From Arcobacter sp. LA11 (GTDB taxonomy: Bacteria > Campylobacterota > Campylobacteria > Campylobacterales > Arcobacteraceae), in contig NZ_BDIR01000001.1 of the NCBI RefSeq assembly GCF_001895145.1, positions 62,001-126,000 on the forward strand: a DNA stretch of 64,000 nt, given 5' to 3'. The notes under the pieces are model-generated. The model searched no databases. It was not told where the DNA came from and saw only the letters and a program-made list of their open reading frames with translations. Below are positions 24,460 through 26,757 of this stretch, one piece after another (the first letter of the stretch is position 1; each line of letters starts with the position of its first letter). The translations under genes and the position numbers were made by a program.

Positions 24460-25479
24460 ATGGCAAGAAAAACGATATATAACCCAGAATCAACTGAATC
24501 ACTAAATGATAGAAGAATATTTGGTGGAAACCCAGATGGAATGATTAATTTCACAAGAATGAAATATCAATGGGCATTGAATCTTTGGGATACGATGGAA
24601 GGAAACACTTGGTTTCCTAAAGAAGTGCAAATGACAGGTGATGCAAAAGATTATAAGTTTTTAGCACCAGCTGAAAAAAGAATGTATGACCTAGTTTTAT
24701 CTCAACTTATTTTTATGGATTCTTTACAAACAAATAACCTAATGGATAATATCAATCCATATATCACCGTTCCAGAAATCAATGCTTGTCTTTCAAGACA
24801 ATCATATGAAGAAGCAAATCACTCAAAATCATACGCAGTTATGGTTGAATCTATTTCTGATAACACAGATGAAATCTATGATATGTGGAAAAATGATACT
24901 CAACTAAGAGAAAAAAACAACTATATTGCAGCTGTATATGATGACCTTGCTGGTGATATCACAGATGAGAAAATGGTACTTGCAATGTTTGCAAACCAAA
25001 TTTTAGAAGGTCTTTACTTCTACGCAGGTTTTGCAGCTATGTATGCCTTAGGAAAATCAGGGAAAATGCTTGGTTCTTCACAAATGATTAGATTTATTCA
25101 AAGAGATGAAGTAACACATTTACTTCTGTTCCAAAATATGATTAACTCAACTAGAAAAGAGAGACCAGAACTATTTACTCCTGAGTTAGAGCAAACTGTA
25201 AGAGGAATGTTCAGAAAAGCAGTAGATTTAGAAGCTTCATGGGGAGCATATATCACTCAAGGTCAAATCCTAGGTTTCACAGATGCAATTATCAGACAAT
25301 ACATCGAATACCTAGCAGATAGAAGACTAGAAGCAGTTGGATACGCACCAGAATATAACGTAAAACATCCAATACCATGGGTAGATGGTTATGCAAGTTT
25401 CAATGACCAAAGAACAAACTTCTTCGAAGGGAATGTAGTAAATTATTCAAAAGGAAGCATCGACTTCGACGATTTCTAA
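24460..25479 (+). CDS. nrdB: Ribonucleoside-diphosphate reductase beta subunit NrdB
   Basis: Diiron-tyrosyl radical subunit, 339 residues. Iron ligands and the radical tyrosine can be read directly: D87 (FMDSLQ), E118 and H121 with Y125 in EEANHSKSY, and a second E-x2-H pair in QRDEVTHLL. The tyrosine is at the position of E. coli Y122, so this is a tyrosyl-radical (class Ia) enzyme rather than the Mn/Fe Ic type. The start has AAGGTAAAGCTT before ATG. The usual C-terminal tail that docks to NrdA is present (SIDFDDF). Confidence 0.96.
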
Positions 25480-25507
25480 AAAAAAGAAGATTTTCTAATA
25501 TTTCTTT

Positions 25508-25576
25508 TTGCCAATCTCTGCGTTGGCAATCGTATTTTATGGACTCACCTACTTCCTGTAGGCTCCTCCATAAAAT
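25508..25576. repeat. Palindromic intergenic element (two hairpins) after nrdB
   Basis: TTGCCAA/TTGGCAA (25508-25529, 8-nt loop) is followed by ATTTTATGGA (25534-25543) pairing with TCCATAAAAT (25567-25576); inside the latter CCTAC/GTAGG makes a second stem. Base composition is richer in G and C than the surroundings. No T-tract follows, so it is not a simple terminator; it resembles a REP-like repeat. Confidence 0.6.
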
Positions 25577-25639
25577 CCAATCACCGCCTTGACCTTAACA
25601 AAAATAAACATCATAAAATCTCTTTTTGGAGTTCACAAT

Positions 25640-26203
25640 ATGGAAAATACTTTAAGTAAAAATATTCTAATTGCTTGGGAAAATACAAAAAATAATTTGG
25701 AAACAAAAATTTCATCTGAAAAAACTCTAGTTTTTAGGTTCTCTATGGAATTATCTAAATTATATAATTGCAGAGATATATTTATTGACTTTGAATATCA
25801 AGCTTATACTGAGATAGAAACTAAAGATAAATATTTAGATTTATTAGTTTATGAATTGGCTAACAAAGAAAAAAAATATGCAATTGAATTTAAAGCTCCT
25901 ACTAAATCAATAAAAGGGAATTCTAATCAAACTGAGACACGAGAGAAAATATATAAAGATATAGCAAGATTAAAATATTTAAAAAGTCATAAGAATTTCA
26001 CTGCATGTATTTTTTTTATGATTACAGATGAAAAGCCTTATGTTAATAAAAGTGAAAATAGAGATAATACTTATGACACCTCTATGGGACATATTGGAAA
26101 TTTGAATAAGTTTACTGAAAAATATGCAATAGAGAATTTTCAATTTACTTTTAATTGGGAAGAAAAGAATTTGTATTATTGGTTAAATCCGATTACTATT
26201 TGA
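25640..26203 (+). CDS. Orphan protein with PD-(D/E)XK nuclease-like motif
   Basis: I do not recognise a named family. The 187-residue protein has DIFIDFEYQAYTEIE, then KYLDLLVYE and KYAIEFKAPTKS, a spacing D-x(about 15)-E-x-K that matches the PD-(D/E)XK core of restriction enzymes and related nucleases. A conserved-looking arginine/lysine helix (TREKIYKDIARLKYL) follows, as in that fold. No methyltransferase or toxin-antitoxin partner is adjacent. Start ATG 25640 follows GGAG by 9 bp. It is isolated between two palindromic repeat blocks. Nuclease activity is a hypothesis from the motif only. Confidence 0.6.
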   Translation: MENTLSKNILIAWENTKNNLETKISSEKTLVFRFSMELSKLYNCRDIFIDFEYQAYTEIETKDKYLDLLVYELANKEKKYAIEFKAPTKSIKGNSNQTETREKIYKDIARLKYLKSHKNFTACIFFMITDEKPYVNKSENRDNTYDTSMGHIGNLNKFTEKYAIENFQFTFNWEEKNLYYWLNPITI

Positions 26204-26218
26204 TTTAAATCCCAGCCC

Positions 26219-26361
26219 TTGTCAAAGCCGAAAGTTTTATAACTATTTTCGAAAAAGACCGAGAATGTCTGAGTAATAAAAGGTACTAAATATACCTTTT
26301 ATTACGAGTTTCACAGGTCAGAAAATATTTCTAAAACTGTAGGGGACTTCAGCTTTGACAA
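26219..26361. repeat. 143-bp long imperfect palindrome (MITE-like)
   Basis: TTGTCAAAGC (26219-26228) is inverted as GCTTTGACAA (26352-26361). Successive inner pairs share nearly the same centre: AGTTTTA/TAAAACT, TATTTTC/GAAAATA, GACC/GGTC, and a perfect 13-bp stem GTAATAAAAGGTA (26273-26285) with TACCTTTTATTAC (26293-26305) around a 7-nt loop. No clear target-site duplication is seen. It is a miniature inverted-repeat element or a structured RNA. Confidence 0.7.
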
Positions 26362-26381
26362 CTCGGCTTGTTGCTTTTTGC

Positions 26382-26430
26382 ACTACTTTTTTCAACAAAA
26401 AAGTAGTAAAGCGAAGAACGCTAGTTCTTC
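26382..26430. repeat. Two adjacent hairpins upstream of the small membrane genes
   Basis: ACTACTTTTTT (26382-26392), CAAC loop, AAAAAAGTAGT (26397-26407) is perfect over 11 bp and extends through GCTTT/AAAGC. GAAGAAC (26413-26419), GCTA, GTTCTTC (26424-26430) follows at once. Together with the preceding element these fill the 305-bp gap 26204-26508, which holds no gene. Confidence 0.7.
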
Positions 26431-26508: not shown

Positions 26509-26757
26509 ATGGTCTTCTCTTTTACAATTTTTCTAATCATAAATTTCATAGTCACATACAAACTTCTAAAAGATGAATATTATGAAAAAAGACAAAAAAC
26601 AATCCAACTTTTTATAATATGGCTATTACCCATCTTGGGTGCAATTCTTGTATACCTATTTTTAAATAGAGAAAAAGATAAAAAGAATTCATATGGTGGA
26701 GGAATTGACCCTGGCTATTATGATTCAGGAAGTGGCACCTCTGGCGGTGGAGATTAG
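26509..26757 (+). CDS. Small two-helix membrane protein with glycine-rich tail
   Basis: Protein of 82 residues not matched to a family with certainty. A first helix (FSFTIFLIINFIVTYKLL), a short basic loop, a second helix (IQLFIIWLLPILGAILVYLFL), then a charged stretch and a Gly/Ser-rich end (SYGGGIDPGYYDSG). The helix pair with a LPxxGA motif recalls the phospholipase D N-terminal (PLDc_N) module, without the rest. Strong ribosome site AAGGAG 9 bp upstream. The next gene starts 3 bp after the stop, so they are co-transcribed. Confidence 0.65.
   Translation: MVFSFTIFLIINFIVTYKLLKDEYYEKRQKTIQLFIIWLLPILGAILVYLFLNREKDKKNSYGGGIDPGYYDSGSGTSGGGD

Follow-up and report, generated by a model that had tools for sequence, protein, structure and literature searches.

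ERIC (IRU, RU-1), a 127-bp enterobacterial MITE, has long been used for typing, and we know of no mover for it. Two other systems invite comparison with the locus described in the present study. In integron gene cassettes, single exchangeable genes are each followed by a long imperfect palindrome, the attC site, and the core defence hotspots of P. aeruginosa and the defence islands of E. coli reportedly hold accessory defence genes between core genes. According to Table 1 of PMC2229807 and passages of PMC2759123, ERIC copies have TA termini with a terminal inverted repeat and a TA target duplication, and a section of a review gives Enterobacteriaceae and Vibrionaceae as its hosts (PMC10969869). 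Our literature search found no report of ERIC in Campylobacterota, or of the palindrome that forms the right-hand repeat of this locus.

We analysed 64 kb of the 3.1 Mb genome of Arcobacter sp. LA11 (G000, C1:62001-126000; hereafter the window), in which a gene for a 187-aa protein lies between an ERIC-like element and a long palindrome. The left repeat shares with ERIC the core TCACTTACTT..GTAAGCTCC and the motifs CTGCGTT and GCCTTG, which follow each other as they do in ERIC, and TA-ended terminal inverted repeats, co-varying arms and intergenic placement are found here as well. Its length is comparable too, with 116-171 bp from TA to TA where the ends are clear. Unlike ERIC, it is hosted by Campylobacterota, with further matches in Bacteroidota, Planctomycetota, Bacillota and others, and it has a fixed site behind nrdB with an accessory gene on its right side. 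The likeness to integron cassettes lies in the single exchangeable gene followed by a long imperfect palindrome; however, no integrase was present in the units that we read, and the end boxes of attC, which we take to be GTTRRRY and its partner, were not recognised by eye in the palindrome. As in the defence hotspots, accessory genes occupy fixed sites at core genes, but the slot described here typically contains a single gene, with a different repeat family on each side. We consider it probable (approximately 0.62) that the 187-aa gene occupies, as cargo, a slot for exchangeable single-gene cassettes. Framing by the two repeats, their fixed order, cargo turnover, allele exchange and empty sites were all observed. 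The main interest is the slot and its two repeats, rather than the provisional nuclease label of the protein.

The locus behind nrdB and its ERIC-like repeat

The arrangement of the locus, from nrdB to the gene at 26509, is as follows.

24460..25479, + strand: nrdB, the left-flank core gene (ORF; stop codon 25477-25479)
25477..25628, + strand: ERIC-like element, outer ends approximate (core 25504-25616 by nhmmer; folding z −4.4 against shuffles for the interval after nrdB)
25508..25529, + strand: first hairpin of the ERIC-like element, terminator-like (inverted-repeat analysis)
25529..25581, + strand: central stem with the ERIC core TCACCTACTTCCTGTAGGCTCC (arms 25529-25552/25558-25581; alignment; arm-pairing test)
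25640..26203, + strand: cargo gene, a 187-aa orphan with D...ExK, candidate PD-(D/E)XK (ORF; coding test; sub-threshold PF08011)
26211..26371 (approximate), + strand: long imperfect palindrome, a dispersed Arcobacteraceae repeat (perfect 13-base arms 26273-26285/26293-26305)
26373..26412, + strand: trailing hairpin with T- and A-rich arms, kept alongside the palindrome in many copies
26413..26430, + strand: second trailing hairpin, GAAGAAC...GTTCTTC, common to some palindrome copies
26509..26757, + strand: 82-aa membrane protein gene (homologs directly 3' of the ERIC-like element in G001 and G003)

The preliminary description of a lone gene flanked on one side by a hairpin pair after nrdB and on the other by a long palindrome that two hairpins follow was confirmed from ORFs, stems and folding scores (z −7.5 against shuffles for the palindrome and trailing hairpins), and its right-hand boundary, 26430, is the end of the last hairpin. 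It had also stated that no methyltransferase or transposase is present, which agrees with the finding that the interval from nrdB to 26509 holds no other ORF of such size. A linked methyltransferase, as expected of restriction-modification, was likewise absent from nrdB up to the LysE-like gene, judged from the ORFs and from Pfam searches of three neighbours. The region and four other loci had no match in Rfam, one chance hit aside.

An nhmmer model built from 28 copies behind nrdB, the window copy included, matched positions 25504-25616 with an E-value of 1.4e-26. The same Arcobacteraceae model matched the E. coli ERIC consensus printed in PMC2759123 at 24.7 bits (E 8.1e-7, 64 kb of shuffled sequence), with CTGCGTT through GCCTTG aligned. 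The pairwise match of the window copy alone to the consensus was weaker, its score being reached by two of 1000 shuffles. The core of the left element, TCAC-TACT..AGTA-GCTCC, is that of the ERIC primers, as far as their core sequence is given in PMC3696847. Of the 28 copies, 11 have a TA-ended terminal inverted repeat of 12-18 matched bases that begins precisely at the stop codon of nrdB, and the window's own copy showed no clear repeat of this kind (5/5, the control level). The empty sites (G009 and G014 at nrdB, and the HIT-def site described below) were too diverged to display a TA target duplication. The arms of each copy paired better with each other than with swapped arms, a value reached by none of 2000 permutations in the Arcobacteraceae, Enterobacterales and other sets, the permutations ignoring the relatedness of the copies. 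A first covariance model retained only five pairs and was left out of the results.

The ERIC-like element lies directly behind nrdB in 14 of the 16 genus genomes, all of which have an nrdB match, and is absent from G009 and G014. Among 40 genomes of other genera, namely those fetched from a search of 61 genomes of the family, 14 carry it behind nrdB by pattern, together with a few degenerate copies. Each of 100 relatives has 0-12 exact-core copies, the reversed pattern matched nowhere in them, and G000 has three further copies. A pattern scan of genome contigs gave at least 120 stretches, 80 of which were retrieved as loci. Among the matches listed, most were from Enterobacterales, and the others included Bacteroidales, Scalindua, Chlorobi, Desulfobacteraceae, Selenomonadales and Pseudomonas; several of the matches are metagenome bins, of which single cases may be contamination. 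Also among the matches listed were named Halarcobacter and Arcobacter with the same sequence behind nrdB, and many of the listed loci have GCCTTG together with outer arms that pair. ERIC-like cores accompanied by matching outer stems thereby came from many phyla, and multiple contigs from one Scalindua bin and from one Bacteroidetes bin are among them.

Two features next to the element were considered and set aside. At some right ends, all of type A (see below), there is a promoter resemblance, TTGACC-17-TATAAA, in some cases followed by GGAG. Promoter-like spacing was found in 12 of 35 right ends, not above shuffles (mean 7.3, maximum 16), and a role of the element as cargo promoter found no support overall. 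The nrdB tail GACTTCGACGA (window 25462-25479), which differs from the T-ending codons in which nrdB is otherwise rich, was present in 20 of 26 carriers of the element compared with two of 14 non-carriers, with G017 and G451, both missed by the pattern, relabelled by hand as carriers. Co-inheritance of this tail with the element was rejected as evidence, the association not being significant on the nrdB tree. In three genera (G011, L070; G017, L222; G048, L220), an insert beginning CTCAAAGAGAGT lies within the left arm of the nrdB copy.

The 187-aa cargo protein

The 187-codon ORF is preceded by a good ribosome site (GGAG, 25628-25631). Shuffling its interval 2000 times gave no ORF of more than 141 codons, and among the reading frames only the ORF's own had a positive codon score; the GC content of the ORF is 0.234, compared with 0.290 for the window. 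The preliminary description regarded the product as PD-(D/E)XK-like. The D...ExK motif is indeed present (YLDLLVY, then YAIEFKA), with the same placement as in the PDDEXK_9 family, PF08011, but the Pfam match to this family over residues 51-120 (E 0.0015, 18.9 bits) was below the cut-off of 25.5. In an hhalign comparison with 12 PDDEXK_9 domains, the D and ExK of both were aligned; the score of 16.9, however, lay among those of 100 shuffles, which reached 19.6, and was lower than that of one unrelated window protein (18.0). The protein stands alone with 187 aa, whereas many PF08011 matches in relatives are frames of over 500 aa; matches above the cut-off occur in 21 of 100 relatives, and the 16 genus genomes have none.

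No match was found in PADLOC at an E-value of 1 or better, or in NCBIfam, and PHROGs gave weak matches only. The search for homologs returned the protein itself alone among 100 relatives, and none in genome contigs, viral contigs, plasmids or phages. Three weak matches in 397 genomes of the phylum were dropped, their frames being, as judged by sequence, a CheW-like protein, a UbiD-like/DNA-repair region and an ATPase. A single-sequence AlphaFold2 model was uninformative (pLDDT 38.8).

Judged from its motif, the protein is plausibly a nuclease, and we use this label provisionally. The alternative, an orphan protein with an unrelated fold and no nuclease function in which D...ExK occurs by chance, is in our view a serious one, although we hold it to be the less probable. 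The hhalign score relative to shuffles and to the unrelated protein, the low pLDDT and the lack of relatives in the searches above are consistent with it, whereas the PF08011 match over residues 51-120 and the pairing of D and ExK argue for a nuclease. If it is one, the protein might be a small PD-(D/E)XK enzyme acting alone against foreign DNA. The solo defence nuclease of the preliminary description is a candidate only, and the sole hints of a defence role come from some neighbours in like slots.

Turnover of the nrdB slot and like-built units elsewhere

Invariance of the locus across strains, which the preliminary description had raised as one half of the case against its reading, was not seen; compared among relatives, the nrdB slot is far from invariant. 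It contains one or two accessory genes, which differ in nearly every genome: two genes in G003, one of them for a membrane protein, proteins of 229 aa (G007), 304 aa (G002), 123 aa (G012) and 149 aa (G005), a gene on the reverse strand in G010, and, in G004 (E 1.1e-7) and G013 (E 2.9e-22), proteins of the putative phage-abortive-infection family putAbiC. In G001, G006 and G013, the ERIC-like element and cargo occur without the palindrome, and in G008 and G015 the element has little or no clear cargo ORF. The whole unit is missing from G009, an empty site with a right flank common to G005, G012 and G015. As homologs of the 26509 gene lie directly 3' of the ERIC-like element in G001 and G003, the orphan and palindrome probably entered between this element and the 26509 gene. 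Between the slot and the next gene, to the right of the palindrome site, G015 (L065) and G005 (L064) have tandem pairs of approximately 30-codon ORFs for similar small membrane peptides (MTLKYESG..., METRYESQ... or MKTRYESQ...).

The ERIC-like alleles fall into four types, A-D. Across the 26 carriers, their distribution on the nrdB tree implies no fewer than 13 changes of type, and presence or absence of the element across 40 genomes implies no fewer than seven changes. For example, nrdB of G000 groups with type-B carriers (G007), yet its element is of type A, and G029 (type A) groups with G055 (type C). Since the allele types cut across the nrdB tree, the slot has been exchanged between species and between genera.

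Copies of the palindrome were found in 14 of the 16 genus genomes and in 22 of 100 relatives, in six genera, often adjoining the same core genes. At nrdB it is whole or split in nine of 16 genus genomes, with a remnant in two more, and has one orientation relative to nrdB throughout. In G002 and G010, it is split close to the middle by IS110-like genes. The insertion point of the IS110-like elements is similar in several copies (L068 in G002, behind nrdB; L341 in G002; L340 and L345 in G010), and a target preference for the palindrome centre is possible. Two inverted copies lie close together in G000 (L304, G000:C1:343335-343780), and similar inverted pairs were observed at L300, L309, L326, L330 and L346. 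Another copy in G000 adjoins an AbiGi-like gene (E 4e-41, L311).

We read 60 other palindrome loci. At ten of them, an ERIC-like element lies no more than 3 kb upstream of the palindrome and always shares its strand, and no such element lies downstream at any; approximately eight of the ten look like distinct sites. Eight exact-core pairs were observed compared with 0.13 expected, a value that assumes uniform placement, with any shared preference for the same spacers outside the model, and for which copy counts were entered by hand with 62 instead of 60 loci. No ERIC was detected at the remaining 50. Palindromes also recur beside identical core genes with differing neighbours. The best replicate of the unit is the HIT-def site, compared in 12 genomes (the other four of the 16 have no close match to this def). 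It carries element, cargo and palindrome in G007 and G001, element and cargo only in G015, and cargo and palindrome in G002 and G010. A gene without either repeat is found in G000 and G004, several genes in G003, and an oxidase-like gene adjoining def, on a short contig, in G011; G005, G009 and G012 have almost nothing between HIT and def, so that the site is empty in three of 12 genomes. Differing slot genes between the same two repeat families, together with the like-built units elsewhere, lend good support to the earlier suggestion of a gene hitch-hiking with palindromic repeats.

Proposed routes of cargo exchange, and defence content

We suggest that the ERIC-like element originally inserted at a TA target, the route published for ERIC, and that later exchange of cargo took place mainly through recombination within shared repeat sequence and the core genes on either side, for example after DNA uptake; recombination is favoured because no recombinase was present in the units read. 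Around the cargo, the hairpins would probably serve as transcriptional insulators or terminators. The palindromes without ERIC (50 of 60), together with cargo next to ERIC but without a palindrome, suggest that the two repeats may be independent insertions. They could have collected at a permissive site, in spacers behind stop codons where they act as terminators, and be bystanders of ordinary gene turnover. This is the strongest competitor of the cassette slot, and we regard it as less probable but well worth keeping in mind. It accommodates the ERIC-like elements that lack a palindrome at nrdB (G001, G006 and G013) and at def (G015), the terminator-like hairpin of the left element and the stable hairpins of the palindrome, and the elements with scant cargo (G008 and G015) and the cargo on the opposite strand (G010) count against a cassette slot. 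The independent placement of bystanders is at odds with the order and strand, fixed in all ten pairs outside nrdB, and with the excess of exact-core pairs over the uniform expectation. A composite transposon-like unit, moved whole with its cargo by a trans-acting transposase using the ERIC-like left end and the palindrome as right end, would fit the TA-ended terminal inverted repeats of the left element and the constant order at several sites, but it is improbable, as no likeness was noticed between the two ends, no target duplication was established around a whole unit and no transposase was found in the units read, apart from the IS110-like gene that splits the palindrome.

Returning to the exchangeable cassette slot, it is conceivable, if rather doubtful, that the locus belongs to an unrecognised Arcobacteraceae cassette system, with an ERIC-class left end, a dedicated palindrome of approximately 200 bp as right end and exchangeable single-gene units, often anti-phage, and that ERIC-like elements are a family spread across several phyla and not an enterobacterial peculiarity. 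Should the framing prove functional, the pair of repeats would provide a handle for accessory, perhaps defence, genes where few are annotated, the 187-aa orphan would be one of many such cargo genes, and ERIC would gain a much wider host range and a testable role beside gene exchange.

Clear defence families among the cargo were SpbK-like, AbiLi-like, AbiZ-like and SIR2-like proteins and PDC-S31. All but PDC-S31, which came from the other cargo proteins, were in a set chosen by eye as defence-like. PADLOC matches at an E-value of 1e-5 were obtained for eight of the ten proteins of that set, whose scan was run at 0.01, three of ten other cargo proteins (one, SspA/DndA-like, probably a housekeeping desulfurase), one of ten nrdB-slot proteins and none of ten downstream neighbours. 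Of 20 cargo proteins taken in locus order, three matched (upstream proteins were scanned at 40 of the 60 palindrome loci), compared with a window background of at most 10 of 57 proteins (ten families, one member each), and there was no excess of defence genes among the cargo in this comparison. The matches among the window's 57 ORFs of at least 100 aa were single members, including mad3 (3e-31), REase_II (5e-17), mad8 and SduA, and the 64-kb window may contain another defence locus.
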